Positions 1,626 through 64,000 of a DNA stretch of 64,000 nt are shown piece after piece. The stretch spans positions 372,001-436,000 of the forward strand of contig NW_026570247.1 of the NCBI RefSeq assembly GCF_019649055.1, given 5' to 3'. The DNA comes from Paramacrobiotus metropolitanus. Taxonomy: Eukaryota > Tardigrada > Eutardigrada > Parachela > Macrobiotidae. A model generated the notes under the pieces. It ran no database searches. It saw only the letters and a list, made by a program, of their open reading frames with translations, and had not been told where the DNA came from. The stretch's first letter is position 1. Each line of letters begins with the position of its first letter. Both the position numbers and the translations under genes were made by a program.

Positions 1626-3045
1626 ATGCGGAATATCTTAAACAGCCACGCCTTCTTGAAGGAGTTGTACGACAGCTGCCGCTTCCATCTACGCATCGGA
1701 GCGGACAGCTGCACTTTCATCGTGTTGAGCGCTCCGACGGAGGTCATGCCGGCGGAATGGATGACATCCACTTTGCTGCAGGTGCTTCATCAGCATTGCG
1801 CTGAACGGACGGAGTTGCCAGGCCAACTGACAAGTCGACCGTTCGCGGGGCAATGGAATTCTGACGGCACAAAATCGAGCCATGGCGAGAATGAAGGAAA
1901 CCGTAAGTAGAATAACAGTTCCGTGATGTACTAATTGCAAACATGTCAAGTTGATGTTTATGGGTAGTTGTTACTCCGGGCGAATCCACAAGCGCGGACT
2001 TCGGTCATCTGCCGCCTCCGCTATGGACCGCGGTCCTGCTTCAGCTGGACCTACACATTCAGGCGACCGCCCAAAGGTTAGCAAAGGCCGATTGTTACGC
2101 GCATAAATACCCAGACGATTTCTAAAGTTACGGTTTATAACAGGGTATGCGCGTTGTGGCAGCAGATTCTCAGCGACCCGCGCAACATGCAGCACATCAT
2201 CTTCCGCTGCCAATCGTGCAGTAACGGCGCCGCCCAATGCCGCAGCCAAAGTGACCATGTCGCGCTGCTGCTGTTGGCCCGTTCCATGCGCCCCAACACG
2301 AAAAGCCTCACGATCACTGAGCACCGGCACAACTGCCAAATATCTTCTGCCTGCTGGTACTTATTCGCTGCCTTGAAGCCCCGCCTACCGCTGCTCATCC
2401 TGCGCGATTCCCACTTGAATTCCGGCGGCACGACCGGCGAGATGCATTGCTATGCCTTCCGATTCAGCAAATTCTGTTACTACGCCCAGCGCATCATTCT
2501 CCGCAACTGGAAGCTGCGCGAGCTGTTCGGATGCGCCATGGAATCCATACTCTACCATCCTCCGCAGCACGGCCACCGCCTGCCGATGACGGAGGAGCAG
2601 CTGATGGCCCCACTAAACAATCCTGATTTCACACTGGCCATCGACCGAATGGAGATTACGCTGGCCAACGTGGTGTTCCGCTGCGGCGCGGAGGAAGATG
2701 TCATGACCAGTCGTTTCATGTGGACCGTCGACGCCCACTGCTTGCCGCTCAGCGATGACCTTTACGCCCACGTGGCGCAGGTGTACCAGCGCTGGGTGCG
2801 CAACTTGGTCTATCCCGGGGAATGGTACGTGATTCGGGATTACCTTAACCAGTAAGTCATCCATCATGCCAACGAGGCACGAAACAAGGACCCTTTTTCA
2901 ATCTCTTAACGAAATTGACAGTTTCAGCGCATTCCACAGTGACGGGACACCGCGGTGCTGGGATGGCGAAGATTTGCGGACGGTGGACGTGCGACATCTG
3001 AGTAAACTGGCGGTCCTAGGTATCAGCGAAGTCTTCCGCGTCTGA
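1626..3045 (+). pseudogene. F-box family copy 1, subfamily A, 5-prime truncated
   Basis: This is the 3-prime two thirds of a four-exon family gene. Exons: about 1626-1902 (end of exon 1), 1968-2076, 2144-2851 and 2922-3045. All remaining junctions are GT..AG with phases 1, 2, 2, and the frame stays open to the TGA at 3043-3045. Exon 1 keeps only the KH0-like end (CRFHLRIGADSCTFIVLS). The two upstream Tudor-like modules are missing and homology begins abruptly near 1626, directly after duplicated 5-prime flank, so a deletion has removed the promoter-proximal part and most of exon 1. The F-box is complete (LPPPLWTAVLL in exon 2, VCALWQQIL in exon 3). The C-terminus has the family ending DLRTVDVRHLSKLAVLG. 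A truncated transcript from a later start is possible but not shown. It is convergent with copy 2. Confidence 0.75.
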
Positions 3046-5067: not shown

Positions 5068-7253
5068 TCAGACGCGGAAGACCTCGCTGATGCCCAGCAC
5101 GGCCAGTTTGCTCAGCTGACGAGCATCCGCCGTGCGCAAATCCACGTCATCCCACCGCTGCGCTGTCCCGTCGCCTTGGAATCCGCTGAACCTGCCAATT
5201 GCATGCAGACATTGATTTCGTGTCCGTGGCATTTTTGTCAATCTTCTTATAAATCCTGTTTACTTTGCAACGCAGTTACTACCACGTGTTTGATGCTTGT
5301 CGTACTTCCTATTTCGTCGTTATGCGAGCTCGCGGCTGTCAACTTAGCTGTAGTATTAAAGCCATCCATATAAACAAAGCATTCCTACAAACCCGACAGC
5401 CTCGTTGTGTCACGTCTCGCTTCGACGACTTACTGGTTGAGGTACTCCCGAATCCCGTGCCATTCCCCGGGATATACCAAGTTGCGCACCCAGCGTTGAT
5501 GCACCTGCTCTACCTTAGCGTAAAGGTCATCGCAGACCGGCGGACAGTGGGCGTCGACAGCACACATGAAACGGCTAGCCATCGCGTCTCTGCCCGTGTC
5601 GCAGCGGAAGACCACGTTGGCCAGAGTAATCTCCATCCGGTCGACGGCCAGGGTGTAGGCAACCTCCTTCTGTGGAACCATCATCTGCTCTTCTTTAAGC
5701 GGCAGGCGATGACTGAACGGCGGAATGCGCCAGAATATGCCGCATATGGCGCGTCCGAACAGATCGCGCAGCCTCCAGTTGCGGACGATGATACGCTTAG
5801 CGTATTCGCAAAATCTTTGCAGCTCCAAGGCATAGCAGTGCTCCTGGCCGCCAGGGCCGCCGATAATGAAGCTGAAATCGCGCAGAATGAGCAGCGGTAA
5901 ACGGATCCTCAAGGCGAACAACAAGTCCCAGCAGGCGGAAGGTATACGGCAGCGAAGATCGCTCTCACTGATCGTCAGGCTTTTCGTGGTGGGAAGGATG
6001 GAGCGGGCTAGCAGTAGCAGCGCGATGTGGTCTCTTTGGGTGCGGCATTCTACTGCGCCGTTGCTGCAGGATTGGCAGCGGAAGATGATGTGCTGTGTGT
6101 TGCGCGGGTCGCTGAGAATGTGCTGCCACAGCGAGCACACCCTGTCAACGGTATTAATAGTAACTTGTCATGTTCATTGCGTACGCGCAACCGTTGCTCA
6201 CTACTGACCTTTTGGCGGTCGCCTGCATTTGAAGGTCCATCTGCAGGAGGATCGCGGTCCACAACGGAGGCGGCAGATGGCCGAAGTCGGCGCCTGGCAG
6301 ATCGGCCGACGTAACGATTACGATTCCCCGTAAAAAAGAACAAAGAAAAATGAATAACAGTTATTCTACTTACAATCATTCCTTGCATCCTCGCAACGGC
6401 TCTGTTTCGTGCCGTCAGAATTCCAGCGCTCGATGAACGTTGAATTTGTCGGTCGCTTGATGGATCCCGGCTGGTCGGCGCAGTGTTGCTGCAGCATCTG
6501 TAGCAGCGTGGCGCTCGTCCATTCCGCCGGAAAGAACTCAGTCGGGGCGCTTAACACGATGAAGGTGCAGCTGTCCGTCCCGATGCGCAAATAGAAGCGA
6601 CAGCAGTCGTACAGCACTCTCATCGCGGCATGGCTGCTTAAGGCATCTCGGAGCCGCTGGACGAGACGGCAGCGATCACCAGCATCTTGGAGAACGGACA
6701 ACGCTCCAGGAAATGGAATAACGTGTTTGGCATAATGAAAGCCGGTGCTGACGTTGGCGGGAGGTGTTTGGAGCGACGGTAGTTTTGCGATGACTTGCAA
6801 ACGGTCCACCACATCGAAGCTGAAGGTAATAACATCCAGCGAGTCGGCAACCGGCACGGGAGGCGTGCTGACGAACAACGTACACCGGTGATGGCCCCAG
6901 ACGCGGCCCCGTACAGTCGCCGCTCGGAAACGGAACGGTCCGCCGTCCTCATCCCGCAGCGCCACCTGCGCCGGCGGCACATAATGCCAGCTCTCGTCCG
7001 AGCGCATATCGCCGGCAGACACGGCCAGCCACACGCGGCTGGCCTCCATCCAGCAGGCATCCATCCGTTTCGAGTCAAAATCAACGAGAACAGAACGGCC
7101 GTCGTCTGAGATGTCCTGAATGTATCCCAGCCAATATGCATCATCGTTGCTGCCAGATCGCACCACCACCGTGTTCTGGTAGCCAAAGGAAAGCCCATCC
7201 GCTGCTGTCAACATCCGCCGGAACGGCGGTAACGCGGCTGAGGATGGCATCAT
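5068..7253 (-). CDS. FMRP-N-terminus-like / F-box protein, copy 2 (open)
   Basis: Four exons on the minus strand: 7253-6374, 6293-6209, 6141-5434 and 5191-5068. They give about 598 residues with no stop or frameshift, and intron phases are 1, 2, 2. Exon 1 starts at the Met of MMPSSAALPPFRRML, as in other copies. It contains NTVVVRSGSNDDAYWLGYIQ and VLVDFDS (first Tudor/Agenet-like module), then QVALRDEDGGPFRFRAA (second), then HVIPFPGAL with CRFYLRIGTDSCTFIVLS (KH0-like). Exons 2-3 encode an F-box: LPPPLWTAILLQMDL, then VCSLWQHIL. F-boxes normally bind Skp1 in SCF ubiquitin ligases; the substrate is unknown. The C-terminal 280 residues are family-specific, ending ISEVFRV. The usual exon-2 acceptor is lost (aat replaces the expected ag), so I placed the acceptor at CTGCCAG, which keeps frame but shortens the linker. 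The domain assignment to FMRP-like modules is inference from motif order. Confidence 0.7.
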
Positions 7254-11331: not shown

Positions 11332-11460
11332 CGAAACACAACAAGATTTAAAATAAAACGACTGGCCATGGTCCAGCAAGCCCGTTGGTGCTGAACAGTC
11401 AAGGCCAACGGCCTAACGGATTTCACCTTGACGCTGAGTTCCGCGGAGAATGAAATAATG

Positions 11461-13001
11461 CTCCGTCAGCGGTAGGCTGTTACTGGGAGGCTCCATGAAG
11501 TAGAATATATCGTATATGGTGCGCCCGAACAGATCTCGCAGCGTCACGTTGCGGACGATGATGCGCTGGGCGCAATCGCAGAATTTGCCGAGTCGAAAGC
11601 CAAAGATGTACTCCTGGCGGAAATTCCAGTTGAAATCGCGCAGGATGAGCAGCGGTAGGCGGAGCTTCATGGCAGCGAACAATTCCAAGCAACCCACGAT
11701 AGGTGGCAGTGTTGATGGGGATCACTGATCGTGAGGCTTTTCGTGGTGGGGCGGATGGAGCGGGCTAGCAGCAGCAGCGCAGCGTGGTCGCTTTTGCTGC
11801 GGCATTCTGCGGCGCCGTTGCTGCAAGATTGGCAGAGGAAGATGATGTGCTCCGTGTTGCGCTGGTCGCCGAGGATCTGTTGCCACAACGCGCACACCCT
11901 GCTAACGGTGATATTAATGGCAACTTGTCGTCGTACTGCGTGCGCGCAACCATTGCTCACTACTGACCTATTGGCGGTCGCCTGCGTGTGGAGGTCCAGC
12001 TGAAGGAGGATGGCGGTCCATAGCGGAGGCGGCAGACGACCGAAGTCGGCACCTAGTAAATCACCTGGCGTGATAACTGTCCGATAACAACAGCAACTGT
12101 TCGAAATTTAGTACATCACTGAACGGCTATTAAGCTTACCGTTGCCTGCATTCTCGCCCCGGCTGCTGTCTTTACCGTCAGAACTCCATCGCGCCGTGAA
12201 CGGTGGACTGGTCAGCTGGGCGGGGAGCCCCGCTTTCTCGGTGCAGTACTGCTGCAACACTTGCAGTAAAGCTGCGGACGTCCACTCGATGACCTCGGTC
12301 GGCGCGCTGAGTACGATGAAAGTACAGCTGTCCGCTCCCATGCGCAGGTGGAAGCGGCAGCTGTCCCAGAGCTCCTTCAGCTGGGCGTTGCCGCTTAAAG
12401 CATTACGCAGACGCTGGACGAGACGGAAGCGGTCAGCGTCATGTTGGAGGACGGTAGACGCTACTGGAAACGGAATAACGTGCTTGACATAATGAAAATT
12501 AGTGCTTGTTTGGCTCCACGGCAGTTCGGCGATGACCTGGCAACGGTCGACCACTTCCAAGCTAGATGTGACAAGATCCAGCGGGTCAGCTGCGGCGCAA
12601 GAAGTGCTAATGAAAAAAATGCTCCAGTGGGGACAGTCACAGATGCTGCCCCGTATAATCCCCACCCGGAAACGGAACGGCCCGTCGTCATCATCCCGCA
12701 GCGCCACCTGCACCGGCGCCCGCGGCACACTGCGCCAGGTGTCGTCGGCGCTCCAATCGCCGACAGATAGTGCCAGCCACACGCGACTGGCCTCTATCCA
12801 GCACGCATCCATTCGTTTCGAGTCAAACTCAACCAGGATGGAATCTCCGTCGTCGGAGATGTCCTGAATGTATCCCAGCCAATAGGCATCCGCGTCCTGG
12901 CCTGCCCGCACCACCACCGTGTTCTGGTAGCTGAAGGAACGCCCATCCGCTGCTGTTAACCTCCGCCGAAACGGCGGCAGCGCTGCTGAAGAAGACATCA
13001 T
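11461..13001 (-). pseudogene. F-box family copy 3, 3-prime truncated and frameshifted
   Basis: Minus-strand exons: 13001-12140, 12076-11968 and 11899 to about 11461. Exon 1 is open and complete (MMSSSAALPPFRRRL start, YWLGYIQDISDDGDS, VQVALRDDDDGPFRFR, CRFHLRMGADSCTFIVLS). The upstream in-frame Met at 13073 is not conserved between copies, so I start at 13001. Exon 2 reads VITPGDLL then LPPPLW; exon 3 opens VCALWQQILGD. One base is gained or lost near 11700, where CHLS shifts to GCLELF. Homology ends at LPLTE near 11461, so the last 90 codons of exon 3 and all of exon 4 are missing. A chance stop follows at 11413. It is divergent with copy 4. Confidence 0.75.
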
Positions 13002-13963
13002 TCTCTTGTCGCCACCTGATACTGCTTGGTCACACCTTATACTGCTCGTGTCACGTGTGACGTGGGTCATCAACTAGCGTGAGTATTGTGGTGGCAACAT
13101 ATCTGATTGTATACAAATAATTATATATGGCGCTTGCCTAGAAATTAGACAACTGGCGGTTTATTCCTCTCAGTTCTTCGCCGAGTTGCGGGCAGTGTAT
13201 CGGCGTTTTGAAGTATGAACTTGCTTGGGGTTTCTCTGTATCGCGATCGTATAAGATAGCAGATAATAAATCGGGGTCAAACTGAAATGTGGACTGTTCC
13301 GTCTTCTGCCTGCTGGCTGTTCAGAACGGAGTTGTGACCCTGTCTGCCGACGGTCTTGCTAAGCAGTACAGTTAGCGTTTTACCTGTAATCATGGGCAGC
13401 CTGCGTATTAGCCGCGCTATTAGGTGAGCTTAGAAAGAACGCTATTGGGTGAGCTTATCGAGTACAATAGAAGTGCGCCTTGCACTCGTTACATACTGTT
13501 CTTGCAAAATCGCAGTTTTACAGTAGTTGCTCACTCACCCGGATTACGCTGAAGTCGGTTAGACCATTGTCTGACCGAATCAAAGACCCGTGTGTCGAAT
13601 AGCCACAGCGTCGACTTGAATGGATCAGTCACCGATTCATTTGCCTCGTTTTTATTAATTTTATAGTATATCTTTGTCGTACGCCATGGCCCAGTTAAGA
13701 GTAACTGAGTAATTCTTGTACGGTAATTCGCAATCGTCATCGCATAATTCAACAGCGCCTCTACACGACTCTGCAAAGAAGAGATTACAACCGGCCAGTC
13801 AGCTGCTTGGCCCGGTCAGATTGCCAGCGTTATGCCCTTGATGTACAGTCGAGCGTCGAGCCAGCGCATTAGGTGCTTAAGCATCTGCAGGTTTTGTAGG
13901 AACGCTAGGTAGGCACTACTGCACCAGACAAGGCAACGGCAGCGTGCCGTCGTACACAGAATC
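13002..13963. promoter_or_regulatory. Shared upstream region of divergent copies 3 and 4
   Basis: This region of about 960 bases lies between the start codons of copy 3 (minus) and copy 4 (plus). The 13130-13372 part matches the flank of copy 1 and the 13549-13622 part matches that of copy 2, so these blocks travel with the genes. It would have to hold both promoters. I cannot place a TATA box or initiator with confidence. Confidence 0.5.
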
Positions 13964-16295
13964 ATGGCTGCCTCAGCCGCCTTACCACCGTTCCGACAAA
14001 TGCTGACGACGGCGGATGGACGAGCCTTCGGCTACCAGAACACAGCGGTGGTGCGGACGGACAGTGACACGGATGCCTATTGGCTGGCCTTCATTCAGGA
14101 CATCTCCGATGACGGCCATTTTATACAGGTCCACTTTGACGCGAAACGGGTGGACATGTGTTGGATACCCGCAACACACGTGTGGTTGGCGCTGTCTGCC
14201 GGCGATAGGATCGCAGATAAGAGCTGGTATAATAAGGAGCCCGTGCAGGTGGCGCTGCGGGATGAGGATGACAAGCCCTTCCGCTTCCGAGCGGCGGTTT
14301 TCAAGGGCAGCATTTGCGGCTACCATAAGCCATACATTGGTATGTTTTTTTATCAGAACATACCTTGCGGCCGATGGCGCAGAGCGGGACGGGGCCTCCG
14401 CCGGGAACTTCGAAGTGGTGGACCGCTGCCAGGTCAACCCGGCACTACCTTTCGTCCACACATCGCCCGCCACCGCCAGCAACGCCCTCCATTATTCCAA
14501 GCATGTTATCCCATTTCCCGGAGCGTCATCCGTTTTACAAGAAGCCGCCGACAGATCCGGTCTCATCCGCTGCTCCACCAAGCCATCAGCAGCCACGCTT
14601 ATTTCCAGGCGTTTCACGACAGCTGTCGCTTCCACCTGCGCATCGGGCCGGACAGCTGTACCTTCATCGTGTTGAGCGCCCCGACCGACGTCATGCCGGC
14701 CGAGTGGACGAAAGCCACGCTGTTGCAAGTGCTGCAGCAGCACTGCGCCGCCCAGGTGGGGTTCACCGCGCGGCTGACCAGCCCGGCGTTCACGCAGTGC
14801 TGGAGTCCTGGCGATAGGAAGCGGAGCCGCTACGAGGATTCAGAAAAGCCTCAGTGGATGATCGTTCAGTCGTTGCATCGCTTGTACGTTGCCTCTTTAT
14901 GGGCCAGTGCCACGCTAGTTGATTGAACCAGCGCCGGACCCGCTCGTCTGCCACCTCCGCTATGGAAGGAGAGCCTCGCTCAGCTGGACCTCCAGGCGCA
15001 GGCCACCGCCAAAAGGTCAGTGATTTTTCACCCGTTTCGCAAGCCAACACTTGCACTGACACGACGGGATGACCTTTGCCTATTTCCAGGGTATGTGCAT
15101 TGTGGCAGCAGATTCTCAGCGATCCGCGCAATACCAAGCACATCATTTTCCGCTGCCAATCCTGCAGTAACGGCGCCGTACGTTGCCGCAGCCTACGCGA
15201 CCACACCGCGCTGCTGCTGCTAACGCGCTCCCTTCGCCCCACCACGAAAAGCCTGACGATCATCGGGCCCGGTTTCGGCTGCCGCTTGTCTAACGTCTGC
15301 TTCCATTGCTTGTGGGACTGGCAACCCCGCATACCGCTGCTAATCCTGCGCGACTGCGACCTGGATTTCGATGGCCACCATGACTTTACCTTGGAAGTTA
15401 CGAAATTTCGCTACTTTTGCCAGCGCGCATCATCGTTCGCAACTGGACGCTGTGTGGTCTTTTTGGGGGCGCCATGCACTGTTTCCTCGGCGTATCTTTT
15501 CAGCATCCCGACTATTCCCTCCCGCCGACGGAGCGGCAGTTGATGGCCTCATTGCCTACGCCCGGATCGCGACTGGCGATCGACCAGATGAAAATCATCC
15601 TAGCCAGCCTGGCGATTCACTGCGAGCCGAACGACGCAGCCATGGCCGTCCGTCTCATGTGGGCGGTCAACACACATTGTCCGCCGGTCAGCGATGACCT
15701 TTATGAAAAAGTGGCACAGGTGCACCAGCGCTGGGTGCGCAACCTAGCCTATCCCGCGGAATGGTACGGGATTCGACGCTATCTCACCGCGTAAGTACCG
15801 TCGGAATACGATCTTGCCAAACACATGAAGCACCATTACATGGTATTGATGTTCAATGGGTCAACGAATTGTAAAGTTGAATTGAAGTTCGTTTGAAAGT
15901 TTGAGGAGATTCACAACTTTTTGTCGATGTAGAAACGGTCTTCGTGCAAGTCCATCTCAAAACGAAGTCACGCTTATGGCAAGGAAATCACAGCAGACAG
16001 GACACAACCAGCCTATGTTTTCACTTTCTCCCACTTCAAGTCATGACTCGGTTTTGAGATGGGCTTGTACTTGGTTACATAACTGTACGTTTGCGTGTAA
16101 ATCTTGAAAAAAGAGCGATCCATAATGAGGTTTTTGACAGTGTTATCCGGTGTTCTGTGTGCTACTGGCAGGTTTAGCGGATTTTATGGCGACGGGACAG
16201 CTCGGTGCTGGGATGACGTGGACTTGCGGACGGTGGATGTGGGCCAGTTCAGTAAGTGGGCGGTGCTGGGCATCAGCGAGATCTTTCCCGTCTGA
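13964..16295 (+). pseudogene. F-box family copy 4, three frameshifts
   Basis: Exons 13964-14853, 14932-15015, 15090-15790 and 16172-16295 keep the family phases. Exon 1 starts MAASAALPPFRQML and has the Tudor-like words NTAVVRTDSDTDAYWLAFIQ and PVQVALRDEDDKPFRFRAA. Near 14345-14352 (a poly-T run) the frame slips by +1, and it returns near 14565 by -1. About 70 residues (in the true frame NFEVVDRCQV, HYSKHVIPFPGASS) are thus read out of frame. The exon-1 donor is the weak GTGGAT. In exon 3 a GC dinucleotide is doubled (cagcgcgcatcat near 15421-15427), shifting the frame between FCQR and IIVRNWTL. Exon 4 is intact (FYGDGTARCWDDVDLRTV, stop 16293-16295). Sequencing error in the poly-T could explain one slip but hardly all three. 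Confidence 0.75.
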
Positions 16296-18031: not shown

Positions 18032-21000
18032 TCACAGCGCAAAATCCAACCCGGAGACGGTGGTCTCCTGCTGCAGACCGCGTAGGCTACCGTTGCCGGC
18101 AGCGCCGCACTGGCACACCTCCGGGCATTTCTTCTGATGCCCGAGAATCTCGCTGCAGACGATCCCGGCAGACAACGTCAGCGTCCACGTCTGCAGAAAA
18201 CACTGCGTGTTCTATGAAGAGCGACCCGATTGCGGGGCTACTGTAATTAAGGAAATGGCCCGGTACATAGCGTCAAGAATGGGATACATCCACTAAAACT
18301 TTCGCTTTCGCGCACTCCGAATCACTTTTTTGTATTACTTAATGTCATTTTAAAGCTAAATGATTTGTTTATATTGTTCTGAAAACCGTTTGCGCGCGCA
18401 ACATCCGGTTGCCGAGATATGGTGGAACAAAATGGGCAAAAAGTTTAAATGCATTGTCGTGTACCAAAAGTCTGGTTATTACCAATTTGAAAATTCATTT
18501 TAAAATTGGAAAAAAATGCTATGGATCTGATATTGGTTCACTTTCGACCTTATGGTCATGTGTCGTTTACAGCAAAGTTTCAAGAAGATCGGGTAATAAC
18601 CAGACTTTTGGTACACGACAACGCATTTAAACTTTTTGCCCATTTTGTTTCACCATATCTCGGTAACCGGATGTTGCGCGCGCAAACCGTTTTCGGAACA
18701 ATGTAAACAAATCATTTAGCTTTAAAATGACATTAAGTATTACAAAAAAGCGATTCGGAGTGCGCGAAAGCGAAAGTTTTAGCGTATGTATCCCATTCTT
18801 GACGCTATGTACCGGGCCATTTCCCTTAAGCGGAAGTATGCAGTACGCACCGCGATGGGAATGTGGCGCGTAATGTGGAACATCTCCGCACCGTGGAACA
18901 TGAGCACCTGGTTCTTGCTGGCGTTGATAAAGGACACCAGGTACTTTTTCAAGTGTTCCCCCTGCAAATGTACCAGGCCATCATCATGTGGAAACAAATT
19001 ATTTGATTACCAAATTTACTATAAGCAGTACAGATAGATAAATATATATAACTCTTGCAATTTTCGATCTTATATTTTTCATAATAATTATAATCTTCTT
19101 ACCATTAGTATAAGTTTTCAAAATACGCAAACATGGTAATGTACACGTAATCTTCAGCACTTCATTGTAATAAATTAGTAATTTTTCATTAAAACAAGTA
19201 AAGCATAATTACAGAAATAATAAGGTACCTGTACGTATTTGGCATGCAAATGTGCTGTATAATCACGATGCAAAATAAATACGTATCAAACGTTCTGATA
19301 AGGTTGGTCAAAACACTTTCTAATAGTGTATAATTTTAGCTATTTTTGGGAAAATACATTACGAGTAAAACGTAATAATAAACGTGATAAATATTTTTGA
19401 CGTAAATTTATTAATGATCAATGCAAAAGTAAATTTTTATTGATAATAAAAGCTTTAAGACGTTTATAAGGAAGTTGCTTTACCTCGGTGGGCGGAGTGT
19501 AGTGCTCGGCGGTGTGGAGCATCTGGTACAAGGCCCGCATAATGCGATGTCCCTGCAAAAACATTCGCCCTATCACCCCACCGAAAGGTCACCGGAAACG
19601 GGATCACCGCACCCACCTGTTCGTGGACGCGCACCAGCGGGATGAAGAAGACGGAGGCGTAGACCCCGTACAGCAGGACACTCAACCAGTGGTACAGTTT
19701 CCCGCTTAGCAGGTGGCTCTCCACGTTCATCACCACGTCGGCCACGTAGCCGCACACGGCGCACACATCCAGGAAGTAGATGAAGAACAGCTCCCAGGCG
19801 AAGGTGTCGTTGAACTCCTCGCAGTACTCCACGAGGCGGGCGTGCCGGTCTTTTAGCGCGATGACCAGCTTCTCCGCCGTGGCCATGTGCTTCTCGGAGT
19901 GGCCGTTGCTGCGGCCCAGACGCCGCTGCAGGTCGTCGTGGGCCTCGTTGATCTCGCTGACCAGCTGTTTGATGCACGACCCGAACATCCACGACAGCAC
20001 CATCGCCACACCGAACACCTATATTCAAATTTTTATGATAAATAGTGTTGCTGAAATATTTGTTTAGGTAAATAAACATGTGAATAAAGTAGGCAAAATA
20101 CTGTTACAATTCTGTTAAATTCCCTCGAAATGTTAAAATGTGTACCAAAATATCGTTTAAGAGTTTTAGTGCAACAATTTGATAACTGATTTATTATGAC
20201 AATGTTGTAATAATTTTATAATTTATTTTAATTTGTTTTCTTGAAAAGTAATATAAAATTAGTAAACCTAACTGTAAAGAAAATTCTGTAAAATAAATTA
20301 AACAGTACGCGCGAGTACAATCATACGTAAATAGACAAAATATTTTCCAAGAATTTCATGGAAATATTGTTAATAGAAAAAGGTATCTGCGGATTATAAA
20401 CATAAATTCTGATTATTAAAACCACGAAAAAATTAAGAACGTTTTTAAATGCAAAAAAATTTGGAGACTGGCTGGAAATCATAAATGAGCAAGGGAAAAG
20501 TCCCCGTTTTATTCTAAAAAACGGGCAGAATTATCAAAATGCGTATAAAATAAATAGTTGATTGCCACAATAAACCAAGGGAATACCTTTACATATTTCT
20601 ACAATACTGATTTGACCTGTTGCGAGACGAAGAACGGCAGCGAGGAGAAGACACTCCACAGCACGACAAACTGCACCAGCGTCACCCGCAGCGGAAACGG
20701 GTCCCACACATTCTCCGCCGTGGCTTCCGGCCGCGTCTCCAGCTGCTCGACAAAATACCACCAATTACACGCGTCCCAGGCCACCCGCAACACCAGCGTC
20801 ACCATCCCCAATACGGTCGCCGCGCGCCGCTCCCCAGGAGCTCCCCCTCCAGCCGTTCCTCCCCGAAATTCAACCGCAGCACCTCGTCCGTCGTCTGTAC
20901 CACATCCCGCAGTAACTGCCGGTCGTAGGCGGTCCGCAGCAGCACCGACAACGCGCGCAGCGTAAAGAGCAGGGGCGGGAGGACGGAGAGCAGGAGGACG

Positions 21001-30107: not shown

Positions 30108-33100
30108 ATGGATCCGCGGACGCATGCCGGCGGAACCGGTTCCCCCTACGGTAAGCACAGATAGCCGAATAGCCGACGGCCGGAAGCGGTGGTGGATAGT
30201 TGTGTGTGTGTGAAAAATAACCGTTTCCATTGAGTGGTGGCGGGTGATTAGTGTTAAGTGCGACAAAATGTTTTCGCATCACTATGCCGTGTGGTGGTAT
30301 AATGCGGAATGTGGCAGGGTATCCCTTCCCCATGTCGCCCAGTGCCTTCGCGCTGCACCAACCGGTGTCGGCGCCGATGGATCCGCGCGGACTGGAGCCG
30401 GCGCGCTACGCCTCGCCCTGGGATCAGGCGCGCTTAATGGGCATTTCCGGGTACAAAATAGTAGTAAACAACTTTTATTACTTTTTTGTAAAAAGTGATA
30501 AGAAGTGCCAGGTTCAGTAATAACGAAAAGACCGCCTTTTTAATTCTGTTTTTATTTATTATGGATTTCTTTTTTTAAATCGAAGTGATGTATGAGATCA
30601 TTGTTAAAAAAGGCCTTTAAGGACAGTTAAATATAAACAAAATTTGCCGTTTTTTTCTTACATCAATAGTTATTTTTTTTTAATAATTTCAATGTAAGAG
30701 CATCGTTCATTTTAGTTTAATTATCTTTTACTTTAATGCCGATTTGCAAACTATGTTAAGGTTTATTATCTGATTTGATTTTAGTGAACGCTTATTTAAA
30801 AATGGTTTCAAATAAGTGAAGTGGCGAAAAAAGAATTATTAATAATTAAAATCTTTATTTTAAAACAGTCAACGTTAAATAGATGTGCAGCTAAAATTAA
30901 CATAAGAAATGACTATTGCTAAAACAATTCGAATATCCATTTATAACGAGTGAAACTGTTCATGTATAAATAAGAATTCTTCTTTTAGCTGAAAATAATC
31001 CGGCTAATTTTTTTTTCAAACAGCGGAAGTCCGTTATTGGGCGACCTAGGTCGTTTGCCGATGTCGGACGCGGCCAGCGCCGCCTACCGCTACAGCATGT
31101 GGGAGCAGATGTACCGGCTGCAGTCGCTGCAGCGCGGCCTGCCCATCGACCCCCGCGGTACATTCACCCTGCTTTCTTCCACCACACTGCACTCTAATAC
31201 ACCAACCTTCTTTCTCTTGAACAGTTCCCATCTCCCCGGATTTCTTAGCCCGGCAAGCCGCTATGGCGGCCGCCGCGGCGGCGGCAGCCAGTGCGGCGGC
31301 CCCGCCCGATGTCTTCAGCCTGCACCCGGCCAGCGTCACGCCCAGCATCGGGCTGCCCTTCACCGCGGAGGGTAAGGGCTTAGAAGTCATAACAATGTTT
31401 CTTAGATTTCTTAGCTTTCTTAGATTCCTTCGAACCGCGGCCAATCAAGCGAGAGATGTACATATATACGTGTTCCTTAGGTTGTGTATAAGCGGCTAAT
31501 CAAGCGAGAGAGATATATATGTGATTCTTAGATTTCTTAGGTTTCTTAGATTTCTTAGACAGGGCTAATCAAGCGAGTGACCTATTGTTGTACAGGTGGA
31601 TCCCGTCTGAGCACACCGCGGCCGGAATCGCTCAGTCGTATCGGCCGGAAACGGCCGCTCTCCCTGTCGCCCTACGCCGCCGACTTCGATCTCAACACCG
31701 TCATCCGCATGTCGCCGAATTCGTTGCTGTCCGGCGGGAATCGCTCGCGGTGTTCCAGTTCCGCTAGCGGCACCTATGGACACTTGGCTGCTGGTCCGTC
31801 AAAATCGTTTAAAAAATGATCAAAAAAATTTTTATGGTTAAAAAAATCAATTATTAAACGCTGAAAATAATTTAGGCGCGTTGAGTCCGTCGCTGTTGGC
31901 GCTGGATCACGTGCGCATGCAGCAGTACATGCAGGCCTTCTCCTCGGCCTTCTGCCCGCCGGCGCCCTCCAAGACCGACCTCCCGGAGGCGGCGGAGAAG
32001 CCGTCCAAAAAAGAGCCGTACCTCCCGGCCGCCCCCCTCCAGCCGGTGGTCTCCAGCAGTGTCCCGGCCGTCAGTCCGCGGCGGAAGCCAGAAAAGGTCA
32101 CCCGGGAATCGGCGCAGTCCAGCACCGGCGGCAACGAGGACGACGACGGTAACCGCCCCTCAAAAAATTCCCTTAATGTTAAAGACCAACTACAATATTC
32201 TAATAACAAAAATATAAAACAAAATAATAATAAAATGTTTATTACAGTAATTATAAAATAATAATGCATGCTAAATAAATTACTAAAAATATATATAATA
32301 CTAGAATAATTATAAACAAGCTTGACCTTTTTTAAAAATATTTAGTAAATAATTTTCAGTTTAATTATTTTGAAAATTGTAGATGCGATGATGCGGTCGC
32401 CGGCCGCGGGCGGTGAGGAGCTGGAGCCGGTGGAGACGCGGTGTCGCTGGGAAAATTGTCAGTTGGAGTTCCAGTGCAACAGCGCCCTGGTGCAGCACGT
32501 CAACCAGGACCATCTGCCGACCAATAAGAAGCAGTTCGTCTGCCGCTGGACGGACTGCGTCCGCGAGGAGAAACCCTTCAAGGCGCACTACATGCTGGTG
32601 GTGCATATGCGCCGACATACCGGCGAGAAGCCGCACAAATGCAAGGTACGTACTGGTAGAAACAACTACTCAGATGCCTGTTTTAGTCCGAATCAAGATC
32701 TTACTATAGGTAGAGGACTGGGAAGCGACTCTGCAACGGTCGACTACGTCATCACTGTCGCATACAGAATGCACTGCTCTGCTATTGCTTACCATAGGCC
32801 CACAGATTTTATTGTCCCTTTTTAAAGATATTCTCAGTTCCTTTCTCCTCTGAAGCTTTCTGATATTTTAACAGATCATATTGAATTTAGAAAACCAAAC
32901 ATGAGAGGCTAGAAATAGAAGAGAAAAGAAATATGCTGAGAAAACTGACAAAAACCGTAAAAAACGCGCATCTGTCGCCATGGCAGCCGCCCTCTCGTGT
33001 GTGCGAGAGTGATGACGTCAAACGGTAGGTTACCAGTCCTCCTCACACTATAGTAAGTACTTGTCCGAATATATGCGAAATTTTTTCGATTTCTTGTTGC

Positions 33101-36100
33101 AGTGTTACCTCTTACATCTGTAGTCTGTACAACTGAAGAAACTGACTTTCTCTGGCCGTTTTACGCATGTCCGCAGTACATCAGTTGTTCAATTTGGGTT
33201 ATATCTTCCTGGTTTATACGGATTTTATTATATCACTCAATTGTTTCGTTTTTCAGTTTATTCTACGAAATCTCCTGAAAATTTCCATAAATCAGCCTTT
33301 TTCTTACGTTACATTGTAATTATTTTCGGACAACCTGTCGTATGGCGAGCGTAGTATTTCTGCTTTCCAGTTTATTTGTGTTTTTGCTTATTATGAAATG
33401 TCATAAATGCAGTGATGTTATGTGCGTTGTGGGATAGTTTGCCGGCTGTCCGAAAGCGTACTCGCGGCTGGAGAATCTGAAGACGCACGAACGCAGCCAC
33501 ACCGGCGACCGGCCGTACCGCTGCGAGTTCGAGCACTGCCCCAAGGCCTTCACCAACGCCTCCGACCGCGCCAAACACCAGAACCGTACACATTCCAACC
33601 AGGTACAAAATTGTTACACATCCTACACAGCGTTATGTAAACCATTCAGAAAAACACGAAGTGGCGTTTTCTTGTCTGCTTCGCAGTCAGCGAAAACATT
33701 CCGTTGCGGACTCGCTGTGCAAATTACGTATTATTCGTGTACTATAAATTAATTTTGTAATTAATGGTATAGTTAGGGACCACACACAAACTACGTACAG
33801 AACGAATTTTCGGGAACGTAGTTATAGATAGTCCCTTACAGTATCTTCCTTTGTGTAACTTGATGCTTGTGCTGTGCTAAACCACCCCCCTAAAATGTGC
33901 GAATCAGAATCGTGTAACATTTTGGTTACAGACTTTCCATAGACCTGACGAAAACAAGCCGTAAACTAAATAGTGTACAAAGACTAGTCTTTGTAATTAT
34001 TCTAGTTTAACCGACTGCCAACTGGTGTCAGTCCGCTCCGGAAAATATTGGCACAGAAAGTCGGCAATTAATCAAAATTGTTCGTATAAAAATTTCTCAA
34101 CCAATACGGTATATATTTCAACCAATAATTCCATAATTAGTTAGACTACTATAATTATCGTACAGTATATATCTCGTATAATTTATCAGATCAGCAGTTA
34201 ATAGATACAAGTTGTGTAACTATTTTGTAAATACATTTTTATTGACAAACATTTTTTTTTTGGAATTATATTGATTTTGATTGCTATTTTTATTGAATTT
34301 TTCCGCCATTTTATTTTTATTTTTCTCTCATTTTTTGGGCGTGCATTGCGCAGTACGGGTTTGACCTTTTCCGGCGATGTGTTGTCAGTCAAGGCAGACG
34401 GTGTTTCGTGTTGCAGAAACCGTACTTTTGCAAAGTGGAGGGCTGCACCAAGCGCTACACGGACCCCAGCTCGCTGCGCAAGCACGTCAAGACGGTCCAC
34501 GGGCCGGAGCACTTCGCCAACAAGAAGCACAAAGGCAACGATGTGCCGCGCGGCCGCCACCACCGCGACCACGACGCCGACGAGCCGCCGGCGCACTTCG
34601 CGCCGCGCCACTTCGCCGACGACACGCGCAGCTCCGGGCGGTCGGGCAGCGAGCCCAGCACCCCGCGGGGACATGTCAAACAGGAGGTGGGTGACCTTTG
34701 CCGGTGTCCAGTAAAAAATAAGTTTTAATTGTGAAATTCAACAATAAAATAATTAAAAATTTGTCAGTTTTATTGAAGTTTATACCACAAATTAAATTTA
34801 AAGTGAAGTAATAAATTTAAATAAAATTAAATTGTGTAATAAAATCGATAGGGCAATGAAATATAAATATAAAACTGCAAAAAAATTAAAATTGGTAAAG
34901 AAAATAAAGCAAAGTAAAGAAAACCGCGTGGCATAAAAAATTCCTTAATAAAATTTGAAATAATAGGGTTAAATAAAATTGCTGAATAAAACTGCATTAC
35001 AGAGTGTGGAGCTGTCGCCGAGCTACTCGCACCCCTCGAGCACCTTCACCAACTGCTCCCTGGACAGTCCCGCCAGTCTGGCGGACTTCCACCACCCGGT
35101 GCTGACCCGCGGCCACCCAATGCGCAGCAACGCACCAATCGCCGAGGTGGACAACGAGATGGACGCGGACCCCTTCGCCGACATGGCCAGCGACATCCGC
35201 GCCGCCATCTACGGCCCGGAGGTCCTCCCGGCGCCCCGCCTGGCTCCGGCCCGCCGCCTCCCATGCAAAACGGCCCCGGCGGGTCCCCTCAACATCCACG
35301 ACCTCAACCAGCGCTTCACCGAGATGCACACCTTCCCGGAACCTCCCCGGCCGCAGTACTACACCTCCGGGGAGCCGGAGCCGGGTCCCCCGCTGACCTG
35401 CCGCCGCGACAGCGCCGCCAGCATCGGGACCTTCTACTCTAGTCTCCCGGCGTCCGACATGAGCAGCCGGCGGGTCAGCGAGGCCTCGGCGACCAGCCAG
35501 CCGTACGACCCGATCTCGGTGGGGTCCTCACGGCGCTCCAGCGAGCCCACCATCGTCCCCAACCGCTCCTTCTACCAGCAGAAGATCCAGATGCGCCAGC
35601 AGCGCTGGGCGGTGCAGGCCCCGCCCCCGCGCACCGGGACCCTGGACACCGCGGCCTGGACCCCGCCGGTGCAGTACCACGGCCTCCGGCGGGCCAGCGA
35701 ACCCACCGGGACCATCGCGCCGGCCCGCATCCAGCCGCTAACCCGCCGCAACCTCCAGCGCCACAACAGTCTGTGCGCCGGGGACCCCGGAGACCATTTC
35801 CCGCGGGAAGACGCCCTCCACATCCCCGACGACATGATCCGCCACCTCCACGAGGTCGCCGAGCGCGCCCGCCAGGCGCGGGAGCTCGGACTGGTCGAGG
35901 AAGACACCGGGGACGATCTCCCGGAGATCCAGCCCAACTACGCCGGCCACGGGTACCCCCCGCCGCCGCCGTACGGGCGCAGCGCCTCCTTCTCCCACGG
36001 GCCGCCGGAGGTGTACCAGCAGCCCCGGCGTCCCTCCCAACCCCCGGAATTCTACGCGCCGGATGTGTACCAGACCGCCAGCCACCAGCGGCAGCGGCGG

Positions 36101-36313
36101 GGCGCCGTGGTGCCCCTCCCGGACGCCGGAGGGGGTCGACCGCTAACGGAAGGGTCCCCGGACAGTTACCAGGTCACCAGCACCACCGGGATGGACGCCC
36201 ACTACCCGGGCGGGAACACTTTCTACGCCGGCGACAACATGGTGATGAACGATATGCACTCGCTCATGTCGACGCTGAACTACGAGAACGAACTGTACAA
36301 AATGGTCCAATGA
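30108..36313 (+). CDS. ci: GLI/Cubitus interruptus zinc-finger transcription factor
   Basis: Ten coding exons: 30108-30150, 30318-30450, 31024-31157, 31225-31371, 31596-31793, 31876-32148, 32383-32645, 33438-33602, 34417-34686 and 35003-36313. They join in frame to about 978 residues. This is the nuclear effector of Hedgehog signalling. Residues about 168-195 ([18 protein letters not shown]) and the TYGHLAAG word near 212 match the conserved N-terminal region, where SYGH-type motifs bind Sufu. Five C2H2 fingers span about 330-480, including [38 protein letters not shown] and [18 protein letters not shown]. Downstream, PKA-type sites RRDS, RRVS, RRSS and RRAS (residues about 679-774) agree with phosphorylation-controlled processing. 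The protein is shorter than Drosophila Ci. The first two exons rest on splice fit and the motif [23 protein letters not shown] sits at 30071-30080. Confidence 0.9.
31381..31590 (+). repeat. Minisatellite in GLI/Ci intron 4
   Basis: Three units carry (c/t)aatcaagcgag(a/t)ga, at about 31441, 31495 and 31566. Two of them are preceded by runs of tttcttaga/g words. The array fills nearly the whole intron up to the acceptor at 31595. Confidence 0.8.
33013..33020. promoter_or_regulatory. TGACGTCA palindrome in GLI/Ci intron 7
   Basis: A perfect CRE/CREB-type octamer lies in the intron between the second and third zinc-finger exons, in a locally GC-richer stretch. A single site could be chance. Confidence 0.35.
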
Positions 36314-46510: not shown

Positions 46511-49500
46511 CTACGCTTCAGTCATGAACACCTCAGTGATCCCGTAGACGGCCAGTTTGCTCAGTTCGAGCGGATCCACGCGCGCCAAATTAACGGCCCG
46601 CCATGATCTCGGTGTGCCGTCGGGGTAAAAACCATTGAACCTGTAAGACGGGCAATTCTTACGACGAGAAGAGCTATCGAGCGAACAAGACTTACAATGA
46701 TAGGTAGCTGCGAATTCTATCCCATTGAGACCGATAGAACAGGTCGCGCGTCCAACGCGCATAAATCGCCTTGACCTTTGCACGCATTTCCTGGGTAACC
46801 GGCGGAAATCTGTTGTTAGCAGCGCACATGAATCGACTGACCATCTCCGGCTGGCCTTCGCGGCAGTCCAAAACCACTCGTGGCACCGTGATCTCCAACT
46901 TATCAATGGTCAGCTCGTGGTCCCATCCCAGATGCCGCATTAAATTCCTTTCCCTCTGTGGCAGGTAGTGCATACTGAATTCCGACTTGTTAAAGATTTC
47001 GTACATGGGTCGGCCAAAGAGATGGCTGACTGTCCAGTTGTGCAGCACAATCCGTTCACAGTGATTTTCCAACATGACGACATCGGTCATGATGGGATGA
47101 TCCAGGTGGAACTTCTCCTCGCACAGAATCCATTCACAGCTGTCCATGATAAAATCCTTCAGGACGATCAGGGGCAGGAAAACGTTCACGGCTTCCATGG
47201 CCTCCAACAAGAGCAGCAGAAATAGCGAACGATCGCGGAGAGAGCGCGTCATTATCGTCAAGCTGCGGGTCGCGGCGGTGATGGTGCGCGTGAGGAGTGC
47301 TGTCGCTCTAAAGCAGTTGTAGTTGTCGGACGTGGTTTTTTTGGTCAGACTGTCCAAATATATGCGGACGTGCTCGGTGGTGTGGGGACGGTTGAGGAGT
47401 TCGCGCCATAATGGGCACACTCTGTTCAAAGCGCACCAGTTATTGGTAATTATGGCTGGGATAAGCCGAAGCTCGGAAGAAACGCTGTGCACTGAATTAC
47501 CGTTTGAGCTTCATCACTGAATGCAGATCCAGGTAGGAAAAGATTTCAGTGAAGATCCAGTACGGCAGATTAGATAGCACGGCCCCGGAACAGGAGTGCT
47601 CCATTCGGAAATCTAAAATTAATTAAAAATTATCACTTATGTGCGGGAATATGAATAAACATTTACGGCTTATAATAAAAACAGGTGACCACTGCGTTCA
47701 CAACCTCCTGAGCTACCTAGCCTTCACTCCGTGCACGACGCTTTTGTTTTTTTTTTGTTTTCACGGTTTCGCGTGGGCAAAAATGGGAGGAAATTTGCGA
47801 CTGATTTCCTGCGTCATGATTTTCTCGAGTTCGAAAAGATTGCACAATAAAAATTTGAATACTCGTAGTGGTCTCGTACATGCCTGAATTCCTAGGATCT
47901 GTGAGATGTCTACGAACTGAATGTGATTTTCGGAGATAACATACTTAATGCATTTTAGCCTATCACATAATTATGTGTACTTCGCTTACTGCCTTATATG
48001 GGCTCCCCTCACATTACTCTCCCTTATCTGGGCCCCCGGCTAGTGAGCAATACCCGTCAAATTATTTATCGGATTTAAGCAGAACCCTTTTCTACTTCTT
48101 TCAACCGGATTTACAAGTGAGCTCACCAAAGAATTCCGAAATTTCACATCCGAATTATATTTATATAATTATATTATCTATATATTTTTTAATTATATCT
48201 TATTATCTATATATATCTTAATTAAATTAAAATACACTCAATGCTGCAAAAGTACTGGCGAAATAAGTTTTTTAAATAAATCTAAATTTTCATACAGTCA
48301 TAACACTGATAACAGCTGCAAAATTGTGAGTAGTAACGTAACCGCCGATATAGAGGGTTGCTCATATTGCTCGGGAGCCCAGATAAGGGAGAGTAATATA
48401 AGGGGAGCCCATATAAGGCAGTAAGCGAAATATGCACGTTCTGTGAAGTACGTGTTGTCTGTTCTGTTACGACTCGCTGTTCTTATCTAACTCGTTTGAT
48501 CGTCAGTTCATCAGCGATTCTGGTTCAGCTAAATGATTACTAATCAGTCTGCAGTTCCTAAAACTAAACCTGTGAATTTTTTTCTAGCTGAAAGGTCGGT
48601 GTGACTGTGGCTTAGGACGAAGTTCATTTCATTCTCGTTCTGTTCTGTTTGCGGTGTTCGTTCAGTTTGGTGATTAAACATTTGGAAACTTCCTGATTAT
48701 TTCGGTTTCGGTGAAAGTTTTTAGGCACGGCGATCCACTTGTACCTAGCGAAAGTCGGTAGTTTCCGTATTACTTACGGAGTCCAGAGCATATTCCCACT
48801 CTACCGATTCAGCAGGTTTGGTCATCTAGTGCGGTAATCGCGTTACAATTTCCGCATAGCATGCGACCATTGCGGGATAAGCTAGTGCACGGAATGAAGA
48901 AGTAAAAGGCAGTGCGAAAGGTTAATGTTATGCAAGAGGACAGCCTATCAACACCCACCTGCTGAATAAATACTGATTTGCTTGTTGGAGCCATCCTCAA
49001 AATTAATCGGCAGCAAATCAGCCCGGGTGGCTAGATGCCTCTCCAGCACTGTCGACAGCTTCGTAATGGTCATCTGTTGCGAATCCGCGCTCGGTCCGAC
49101 ACCGGCGACCACAAACATACAGCCACTGGCTTCGGTGCGCAGGTGAAACCGCCAACAATCCGTCACGTCTGTCAGCGCTGTATCGTTCTCAAACGCTTCG
49201 CGAAAAAGTTTAATAACGCGCGATCTGTCAGCCGGTTCGCTCAGGATCTGGTTCGCCATGGCAAAGGGAATAAAATGCTTCGTATACACCAGCCCGCTGT
49301 TACGGTACAGCAACGCTGGCTCAGAGAACCACTCCAGACCGAGGATTTGACAATTTTCCACCAACTCGATGCGAGCGCTGGCGGATTGTCCGCTGGTATG
49401 GTTTGTCATACACTGGACATTGGTCTGGACGTAATACATAAAATTTGGGTAACCTGGCGTAAATGCTTTGAGTACGAAAACCGACTGGAAGCGGAACGGT

Positions 49501-49796
49501 CCGTCGTCGACGTCGCGAAGTGCCGCAAAAATTGATCGGTTCTCGTGATTCCGGTTACCTTTGCACCACGGGACAGGGTAGACACTCCCGGAATGAATCC
49601 ATCGGGCGGCGGCCTTCTTCGAATCAAAATCGACAAACACTTGGTCCCCGTCGATATCCTGGATAAATCCCAGCCACATTGCGCCGTTGACTTGGACCGC
49701 AACGGTGTTCTGGTAGCTCATCTGATTAACGCCGGACAGCAGCCGCCGGAACAGAGGCGTTGATCCGACCACGGAAGTGCAATCCAGTAAACTCAT
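46511..49796 (-). CDS. FMRP-N-terminus-like / F-box protein, copy 5 (subfamily B, open)
   Basis: Four minus-strand exons: 49796-48959, 47612-47501, 47421-46696 and 46640-46511. They keep phases 1, 2, 2 and give about 601 residues with no defect. The start is MSLLDCTSVVGSTPLFRRLL; an upstream Met at 49826 is not shared by copy 6. Exon 1 shows YQNTVAVQVNGAMWLGFIQ and VFVDFDSKKAAARW (first Tudor-like), AALRDVDDGPFRFQS (second), then KHFIPFA and CWRFHLRTEASGCMFVV (KH0-like). The F-box is the clearest of all copies: LSNLPYWIFTEIFSYLDL plus VCPLWRELL, as in Skp1-binding F-boxes. C-terminal family words are RIVLHNWTVSHLFGRPMYEI, VSRFMCA and LSKLAVYGITEVF. Intron 1 is long (1.3 kb) and carries an inverted-repeat element. 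A role as an SCF adaptor with an RNA- or protein-binding N-terminus is inferred. Confidence 0.8.
47978..48432. mobile_element. Inverted-repeat element in intron 1 of copy 5
   Basis: Terminal arms of about 75-80 bases (left about 47978-48055, right about 48358-48432) are near reverse complements. They share ttcgcttactgccttatat, ggctcccct and attactctcccttatctggg. The centre is AT-rich and non-coding. It looks like a fold-back MITE; I could not define a target duplication. Confidence 0.75.
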
Positions 49797-51741: not shown

Positions 51742-51990
51742 ATGGATTCACACTTCCGTGATCGGGTCGACGCCTGGGTTCCGGCGGCTGTTGACTGGGG
51801 TCAGTCAGATGAGCTATCAGAACACCGTGGCGGTCCAAGTCAACGGGGCAATGTGGCTGGGATTTATCCAGGATATCGACGGGGACCAAGCGTTTGTCCA
51901 TATCGATTCGAAGAAGGCCGAAGCCCGATTGATCCATGCCGGGAGTGTCTATTCTGTACCGTGGTACAATCGTTACCGGAGTCCGGTACA
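51742..51990 (+). pseudogene. 5-prime fragment of a subfamily B F-box gene (fragment 6f)
   Basis: It reads GSTPGFRRLLTGVSQMSYQN, then VAVQVNGAMWLGFIQDIDGD, VHIDSKKAEARLIHAG and VYSVPWYNRY, matching the first 90 residues of copy 5. A 1-base difference near 51745 breaks the frame right after the expected start. Homology ends after the first Tudor-like module. It points toward the truncated 3-prime end of copy 6, about 50 bases away. Confidence 0.75.
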
Positions 51991-52044
51991 ATCGTTACGT
52001 CGCCGTGTTGCGTGCGATTCAGTGGTCTCGGAAATCAGATTTTC

Positions 52045-56860: not shown

Positions 56861-57283
56861 TTTCAGCATTTTGACCACATGCCATTCATTTCCAGCAAGA
56901 ATCTCTTTTTTCCGTTTAATAATTGGCCGATCTTATCTGCTCGGCTTGTAGTGTTCCAAAGGCTATGCCATAACCTGGACAAAACTGCTGTCGAGCATGG
57001 CATTTTCTAACCCACTGACCCACCAGGATTTCTATTGACGCATACTGCTTCTGCTCTCTGCAGTCTCTGCTTCGACCAACATAAACCGCTTCGCCTTTCG
57101 AAACAGCAAGAGAACTTTTTTCTCCTTGGATCAGGGAAAGCGCTAACACAGCACAGCCATGCGCTGACAGCGCTATAAGATGCACAACTGAAGGTATTCC
57201 ATATCAAGTGAGTACCCACCACATAATACTGCCCGGTCTGCACCCCTACAGTATAGCGCCACAATTTCAACGTGAGCAGAATC
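56861..57283 (+). promoter_or_regulatory. 5-prime flank of copy 8, shared with copy 10
   Basis: It aligns with 63090-63430 upstream of copy 10. Shared words include ccgatcttatctgct, tagtgttc, gcatactgcttctgctctctgc, cacagcacagccatgc, aagatg(c/t)acaactgaa and ccatatc. The distance to the ATG is similar. These are co-duplicated upstream sequences and the most likely place for the promoter. Confidence 0.6.
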
Positions 57284-63524: not shown

Positions 63525-64000
63525 ATGGTTATTCATGCAGCACTGCCGCCGTTCCGGCGGATGTTGACGGCAGTCGATGGGCGTTCATTTGGTTATCAGA
63601 ACACGGTAATCGTGCGGAATCCCTGTGACGCAGGTCCTCATTGGCTGGGCTACATTCAGGACATCTCTGACGACGGTGCTAACGTTCTGGTTGACTTTGA
63701 TATTCAGCGGACGGGTGCGTGTTGGATGCAAGCCGGTCGCGTTTGGCCGACGTTGTTCGTGGGTGATGTTCCCTCGGACAGCCAGTCACCGGTGCTGGTA
63801 GCGCTGCGGGATGAGGACCACGGACCTTTCAGCTACCGCGCGGCGGTTGTAAAGGGCAGGATCATAGATCATAAACCCAGCACAATCTTCTTCGTAAGCT
63901 GGCCCCCCGCGGCGATGGATGGTTCGCTGGCAGCTGATGTCAGCGCCGGATTCGAAGTGGTCGACGGTTGTCAGCTCCTTACCGAATTACCGTGGGCCCG
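63525..64000 (+). CDS. FMRP-N-terminus-like / F-box family copy 10 (runs off the window)
   Basis: The frame is open from ATG 63525 to the window end (158 codons). The start MVIHAALPPFRRML is followed by NTVIVRNPCDAGPHWLGYIQ, VLVDFDIQRTGACWM, VLVALRDEDHGPFSYRAA and GFEVVDGCQLL, i.e. both Tudor-like modules of exon 1. No defect is seen in this part. Exons 2-4 should lie beyond the window. The 5-prime flank carries the conserved word also found before copy 9. Confidence 0.75.
   Translation, partial: MVIHAALPPFRRMLTAVDGRSFGYQNTVIVRNPCDAGPHWLGYIQDISDDGANVLVDFDIQRTGACWMQAGRVWPTLFVGDVPSDSQSPVLVALRDEDHGPFSYRAAVVKGRIIDHKPSTIFFVSWPPAAMDGSLAADVSAGFEVVDGCQLLTELPWA

Follow-up and report, generated by a model that had tools for sequence, protein, structure and literature searches.

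RNA and modified proteins are bound by the N-terminal part of the fragile-X protein, whilst the F-box serves cells as a handle in the marking of proteins for destruction. For the tandem Agenet domains of FMRP, binding to methylated lysine and to RGG/RG proteins has been reported, F32 and Y96 being the putative methyl-binding pocket residues (PMC5430443); the GxxG motif is absent from the FMRP KH0 domain (PMC9603430), and F-box proteins are SCF ligase adaptor proteins (PMC8665587). Structures of FMRP, FXR1 and FXR2 (4QVZ, 4OVA and 4QW2; tandem Tudor structures 2BKD, 3KUF, 3O8V and 3H8Z) have the same Tudor1-Tudor2-KH0 order and folds as are predicted for the N-terminal half of a gene from the tardigrade Paramacrobiotus metropolitanus, found within a window (the whole stretch of DNA analysed) of 64,000 nucleotides. 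This gene is very probably a member of a large tardigrade F-box family with an FMRP/FXR-type Tudor1-Tudor2-KH0 N-terminal half, the members of which are inferred to be SCF receptors, Skp1 binding likewise being inferred.

The window gene was modelled from open frames and splice signals, without transcript data, as three minus-strand exons with two GT-AG introns (80 and 67 bases) between them, which together encode a product of 558 amino acids. Its features are as follows:

7253-6374, minus strand: exon 1, FMRP-like N-module, residues 1-293 plus one base (open frame, GT donor, paralogue alignment)
7020-7172, minus strand: predicted Tudor/Agenet 1, residues 28-78 (AlphaFold2 strands, A1 profile matches)
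6786-6971, minus strand: predicted Tudor/Agenet 2, residues 95-156 (AlphaFold2 strands, Foldseek, dN by domain)
6474-6737, minus strand: predicted KH0-like domain, residues 173-260, beta-alpha-alpha-beta-beta-alpha without GxxG (AlphaFold2 and Foldseek alignments)
6293-6209, minus strand: exon 2, first half of the F-box, LPPPLWTAILLQMDLQMQATAKR (GT-AG introns; similar half-boxes downstream of paralogous N-modules)
6141-5430, minus strand: exon 3, second half of the F-box, VCSLWQHIL, then a C-terminal domain of unknown fold and the stop codon

The motifs on which the initial annotation had based an FMRP-like module (YWLGYIQDIS..VLVDFDS, VALRDEDGGPFRFRAA, HVIPFP and CRFYLRIGTDSCTFIVLS) were all located in exon 1, within a single minus-strand open frame of 295 amino acids (7253-6366). 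The order that it had proposed, an N-module followed by an F-box in one gene, was also borne out, with the F-box spread over two exons: LPPPLW lies in the short exon 2 and VCSLW at the start of exon 3, and the window F-box is therefore split by the 67-base GT-AG intron. The full order is N-module, F-box, C-terminal domain. The span first assigned to the gene, 5068-7253, fits exon 1 at its start but passes the stop codon by about 360 bases, in that coding ends at 5430 and 5068-5429 lies outside the coding part. The fold of the C-terminal domain remains unresolved, not being revealed by the best 50 PDB matches listed for the full-length model of a sister gene (L073, see below).

The 169.8-Mb assembly (533 contigs) was searched at the protein level with exon 1, giving at least 138 matches, or at least 129 N-module loci on 51 contigs, for the subfamily of the window gene (subfamily A). 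This number is a lower bound because only 133 of 716 candidates were scored, and some of the loci are fragments. Forty of the 129 loci are situated on the contig of the window, and eight inside the window itself, along with degenerate pieces. The copies other than the window gene are:

12141-13001, minus strand: paralogous N-module (tblastn, 62% identity), with C-module pieces at 11446-11897
13961-14848, plus strand: paralogous N-module, with the C-module at 15091-15788 in two frames
60484-61293, plus strand: paralogous N-module with an internal stop, and the C-module at 61583-62290
49029-49766, minus strand: more divergent paralogous N-module (31%), with the C-module at 46698-47420
1626-2852, plus strand: partial paralogue with the N-module end, F-box and C-module (2145-2852)
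57281-58832, plus strand: partial paralogue with the N-module start, F-box and C-module in two frames
63525-64000, plus strand: paralogous N-module running off the window edge

Degenerate pieces of more family copies were seen on both strands at 51764-54578 of the window, a sign that copies have been gained and lost within the cluster. For 97 of the 129 A-type N-module loci, a same-strand C-module follows no more than 6 kb downstream, relative to 22 with one at most 6 kb upstream, which serves as the background due to clustering; both counts rest on 150 of 154 C-module matches.

Two other loci in the window are mentioned for completeness. A zinc-finger gene (32370-36313, plus strand), which by resemblance may be a GLI/cubitus interruptus orthologue, comprises a zf-C2H2_15 match (32370-32825, E 3.7e-19), a weaker finger below the cut-off (34408-34728, E 7.3e-5) and a frame of 444 amino acids (34979-36313) without a Pfam match. 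At 19464-20018 on the minus strand, a model of 7tm chemosensory receptors was matched weakly and below its cut-off (E 1.9e-4).

A multiple alignment (A1) was prepared from 43 stop-free A-type N-modules (four in the window and 39 elsewhere), restricted to matches spanning more than 200 residues; two of 45 such N-modules were left out due to internal stops. Eight columns are invariant across the 43 members. In the KH0-like domain of subfamily A (window 6474-6737), C229 is invariant and C218 nearly so, and neither cysteine was seen in the sister subfamily.

This sister subfamily (B) was retrieved by way of the Pfam model Tudor_FRX1, which matched 27 places in the genome, four of them over the cut-off, the best being the true FMR1 gene, which was also matched by KH_9. 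The A1 profile matched nine of the remaining 26 places, and two of those without an A1 match (L068 and L064) were utilized as queries, yielding at least 134 matches that correspond to at least 132 loci on 38 contigs (at least 126 matches with L064 as the query). The locus lists of the two subfamilies, compared by eye only, had no place in common; together they amount to at least 261 N-module loci in the genome. Sixteen B-type loci were fetched, and in four of these (L071, L072, L073 and L086), as well as in L064, the N-module and F-box occur in one open frame; in the other 12, the two parts are in separate frames or only one part was seen. There is also a third group, with a short first exon that matches Tudor_FRX1 (L087, 30.5 bits, and L088, 27.3 bits, over the cut-off; L089, 24.1 bits, just below it). 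For L088 the F-box profile described below gave 12.3 bits, and for L089 the F-box was read by eye, the joined exons matching PF00646 below the cut-off (E 0.00076); no F-box was found by the profile within the 4.5 kb examined for L087.

The genome's own FMR1 has Pfam matches to KH_1, KH_9 and Tudor_FRX1. In this orthologue (L041/L042, around C5:3433332-3433952, minus strand) the Tudor, KH0 and KH matches are unbroken by introns in an open frame of 630 amino acids. An FMR1 frame without introns is unusual, and the N-terminal part could have spread more easily from a copy of this kind.

The initial annotation had also named a check of the F-box, which Pfam F-box models met in part through the window gene and more firmly through its sisters. 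The spliced window F-box matched PF12937 (E 0.001) and PF00646 (E 0.0046), both below the curated cut-offs, and the F-box exceeded a Pfam cut-off in all five B-type single frames that carry both parts. Of two separate B-type C-terminal frames scanned, L080 passed the F-box cut-off and L085 failed. In searches of PDB with a full-length B profile, FXR1 ranked first over the N-terminal part (E 0.0028), and the F-boxes of KDM2B and FBXL3 were matched by the F-box part (E 0.19-0.22). A profile constructed from the window F-box together with 12 F-boxes of subfamily B was run over 47 A-type stretches (seven in the window and 40 elsewhere); in 35 it scored above 6 bits at a point downstream of the N-module, three of them by the second half only, with reverse complements scoring no more than 0.7; the window gene, itself part of the profile, is one of the 35. 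The other 12 stretches gave no F-box match in the short DNA examined, and are considered undecided because that DNA is short for genes with long introns. In the A-type F-boxes listed, as read by eye, the first half mostly stops at a common point, following KR or similar residues, which would be the expectation if the copies share a splice site.

It remains conceivable that these are F-box proteins in name only, with weak or no Skp1 binding and an N-module that works without SCF, for example in RNA granules. The sub-threshold scores of the window F-box could be read in this manner, and FMRP modules do work without F-boxes; nonetheless, the uniform passage of the cut-off by the sister frames with both parts, and the recurrence of the F-box in nearly three quarters of the A-type stretches, the remainder being undecided rather than negative, render this unlikely. 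Four Skp1 matches were found in the genome.

F-boxes were also surveyed across the genome, where all 150 of those scored, among 997 candidates, were over the Pfam cut-off. One of these 150 was present within 1 kb downstream of 14 of the 132 B-type loci and upstream of none, and within 5 kb downstream of 19 and upstream of seven. As a scored F-box lies near only 14 of the 132 B-type modules, other expanded F-box groups seem to be present, though A-type loci were not compared.

The initial annotation had likened the N-module to the FMRP order of Tudor/Agenet 1, Tudor/Agenet 2 and KH0, and structure comparison agreed, placing the N-terminus on FMRP Tudor1-Tudor2-KH0, with FMRP-family structures first for the models of both subfamilies. 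An A1-based AlphaFold2 model of exon 1 (pLDDT 84.1, pTM 0.82) predicted two strand-rich domains followed by beta-alpha-alpha-beta-beta-alpha. When this model was compared with 350,542 PDB chains using Foldseek, ranks one to six were occupied by FMRP N-terminal structures comprising Tudor1-Tudor2-KH0 (4qvz, 4ova and 4qw2; E 1.6e-6 to 8.8e-5, 235-238 columns, prob 1.00), followed by the SHH1 SAWADEE domain (4.5e-4) and SGF29 (2.1e-3). The rmsd to FMRP was large (8.6-9.5), and the packing of the domains therefore either differs or was badly predicted.

Sequence comparisons of subfamily A were considerably weaker. The A1 profile, searched against 177,635 PDB sequences at E<=10, retrieved only FXR1, FXR2 and FMRP (E 0.16-0.57), whilst phmmer with window exon 1 alone found no PDB match and a Pfam scan of the same exon gave no FMRP match. 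The single, weak Pfam match of this exon was to Cas_Csa5, which was taken as chance. Tudor_FRX1 matched one of the 43 A-type members (E 0.19) and Tudor_4 matched four (best 0.013), and with a profile HMM of the FMRP family six of the 43 outscored all of 2160 shuffles, which the window gene, at 1.4 bits, did not. Comparison of A1 with one FMRP sequence in hhalign gave nothing useful, hence an FMRP alignment was needed; an alignment of the genome's FMR1 with human FMRP and FXR1 was therefore employed. Against this family, A1 aligned with Tudor1 only, scoring 30.3 relative to a shuffle maximum of 24.6 (probability 20.7%), and the KH0 of subfamily A was not above chance by this method (10.2). The identity of KH0 in the window subfamily thus rests on structure prediction alone, and is a weak point of the assignment.

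The sister subfamily supplied the stronger evidence. The 16 B-type N-modules aligned with the FMRP family from Tudor1 through Tudor2 and into KH0 (E 3.2e-12, probability 97.6%, score 83.2, 172 columns), whereas 60 column shuffles scored no more than 23.2 and the reversed alignment 13.1. Omission of the four members that had been picked by Tudor_FRX1 left E 5.5e-11 and a probability of 97.1% over 141 columns; these E-values derive from single comparisons, not database searches. The B-type KH0 alone scored 18.4 relative to a shuffle maximum of 14.9, and an F-x-K motif at its start, shared with FMRP, has a nearly invariant F and an invariant K. The full-length L073 model was weak outside the N-module (pLDDT 72.9, pTM 0.47), and its ten best PDB matches in Foldseek were FMRP, FXR2 and FXR1 (E 7.9e-8 to 3.3e-4). 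FMRP chains with KH0 (7.9e-8 to 5.7e-7) surpassed Tudor-only chains (1.6e-4 to 3.3e-4), indicating that KH0 contributes to the match. A profile of the B-type N-module (A3) placed trypanosomatid uL24m (0.007) ahead of FXR1 (0.081) in PDB; uL24m was set aside as the identity of the B-type Tudor2 because its match covers part of one domain and FMRP prevails in structure and profile-profile comparison. The two subfamilies aligned with each other over Tudor1 and Tudor2 (E 1.4e-4, probability 52.8%; E 0.0012 and 19.8% for the reduced set). FMRP-type homology of the N-module is accordingly supported by both sequence and predicted structure in subfamily B, and by predicted structure in subfamily A.

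An alternative is that the N-module represents a generic Royal-family tandem Tudor/Agenet, of the SGF29, SAWADEE or plant Agenet type, joined to an unrelated alpha-beta domain that matches KH0 by convergence. The SAWADEE and SGF29 domains do rank next after FMRP, sequence comparison gives no significant support to KH0 in the window subfamily, and a plant Agenet with an F-box is in print (PMC4634149). Set against this, FMRP heads the list for each model, its best match surpassing the best SAWADEE match by some two orders of magnitude in one and the best SETDB1 match by almost five in the other, and the sister family aligns with FMRP over both Tudor domains and part of KH0, the latter exceeding its shuffles on its own and retaining the F-x-K motif. 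We therefore hold the generic alternative to be quite improbable, and retain an FMRP-type origin for the module.

Whether this origin extends to ligands is less certain. Of the A-type members, 42 of 43 have a phenylalanine equivalent to F32, as do 11 of the 16 in subfamily B (the genome's FMR1 has Y). The Y96 position is not kept in A-type members, and in B-type members is W in 11 of 16 in one alignment mode, but not in the other two of three modes. GxxG is absent from the alpha1-alpha2 region in all 43 A-type members (B-type members were not counted). Binding of methylated proteins or RNA by the N-module is possible, though there are no binding data, and as F32 is kept but Y96 is not in subfamily A, it is not to be assumed, there least of all.

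The family has expanded to hundreds of loci that are partly clustered, and close pairs of its members are under purifying selection, with dN/dS of 0.22-0.48 in the 25 closest N-module pairs. The window gene is in none of these pairs, the pairs have members in common, and among the more divergent pairs dS is large. Tudor 2 had a higher dN than Tudor 1 in 24 of the 25, and in 20 it exceeded both other domains. That most copies owe their spread to mobile elements or are in decay, the family having no organismal function, is the least probable alternative, for although the loci number at least 129 and 132 on 51 and 38 contigs, window copies have stops, frame changes and missing ends, and internal stops occur in 13 of the 138 exon-1 matches, it is opposed by the low dN/dS of close pairs, the stop-free state of 43 of 45 long N-modules and the clustering of 40 of 129 loci on a single contig.

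By inference, and in the absence of expression, Skp1-binding or ubiquitination data, these proteins most likely act as receptors of SCF ubiquitin ligases, with the FMRP-type module as the head that binds the target. The F-box would bind Skp1 and so dock the protein on an SCF (Skp1-Cul1-F-box) ubiquitin ligase, and the Tudor-Tudor-KH0 head, perhaps together with the C-terminal domain, would select proteins or RNPs for ubiquitination. Duplication, with Tudor 2 as the fastest-changing domain of the head, may then provide a varied repertoire of receptors, as has been proposed for Caenorhabditis F-box families. A bolder suggestion, for which ligands are untested and which we offer as speculative and rather doubtful, is that in this tardigrade lineage a copy of the fragile-X reader module became the target-recognition head of several hundred SCF receptors that constitute a fast-duplicating surveillance system, removing RNPs or methyl-marked proteins through a diversifying Tudor 2; targets could include, for example, viral or transposon RNPs or methyl-marked proteins, or the storage granules left once the animal has dried. 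Should the head indeed read RNPs or methyl marks, the family would be a natural targeted-degradation system for both.

The claim that no described protein joins this module to an F-box held in part. An FMRP-type trio with an F-box was not found in the literature, as judged from titles and abstract openings among the matches listed, with subscription papers and most preprints outside the search, and an expanded F-box family with an FMRP-type head, in effect a large set of protein-disposal receptors, is apparently undescribed. However, plant Agenet/Tudor proteins likewise combine Agenet/Tudor and an F-box in one protein (PMC4634149), so the combination of Agenet and F-box is not unheard of; as far as the accessible part of that source goes, these belong to a plant clade and no KH0 is named, and no sequence comparison underlies the likeness. 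A working analogy is provided by UHRF1, in which a tandem Tudor reader is situated inside an E3 ubiquitin ligase, though it ranks well below FMRP in Foldseek and its ligase is of the RING type, not SCF.

The likeness to FMRP, FXR1 and FXR2 extends to the F32-equivalent phenylalanine in most family members and to a KH0 without GxxG. It does not extend to the Y96 pocket position, nor to the family size of hundreds of loci, and where the whole FMRP/FXR protein has KH1 and KH2, the tardigrade family has an F-box and a C-terminal domain instead; Pfam at E<=0.1 gave only F-box families in full-length L071, L072 and L073, and no KH1 or KH2. The family thereby shows an FMRP N-terminus surviving without KH1, KH2 and RGG. 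The expanded F-box families of Caenorhabditis (PMC8665587) share the lineage-specific expansion and the joining of an F-box to a divergent domain, and are thought to be substrate receptors, but their partner domain is FBA2 or FTH, whereas in the tardigrade the F-box comes after an FMRP-type module. Among animals, large F-box expansions are known from nematodes with FBA2 or FTH partners; the tardigrade partner is a module with known ligand classes, namely RNA and methylated proteins, and the family hence offers a direct route to what expanded F-box families recognise.
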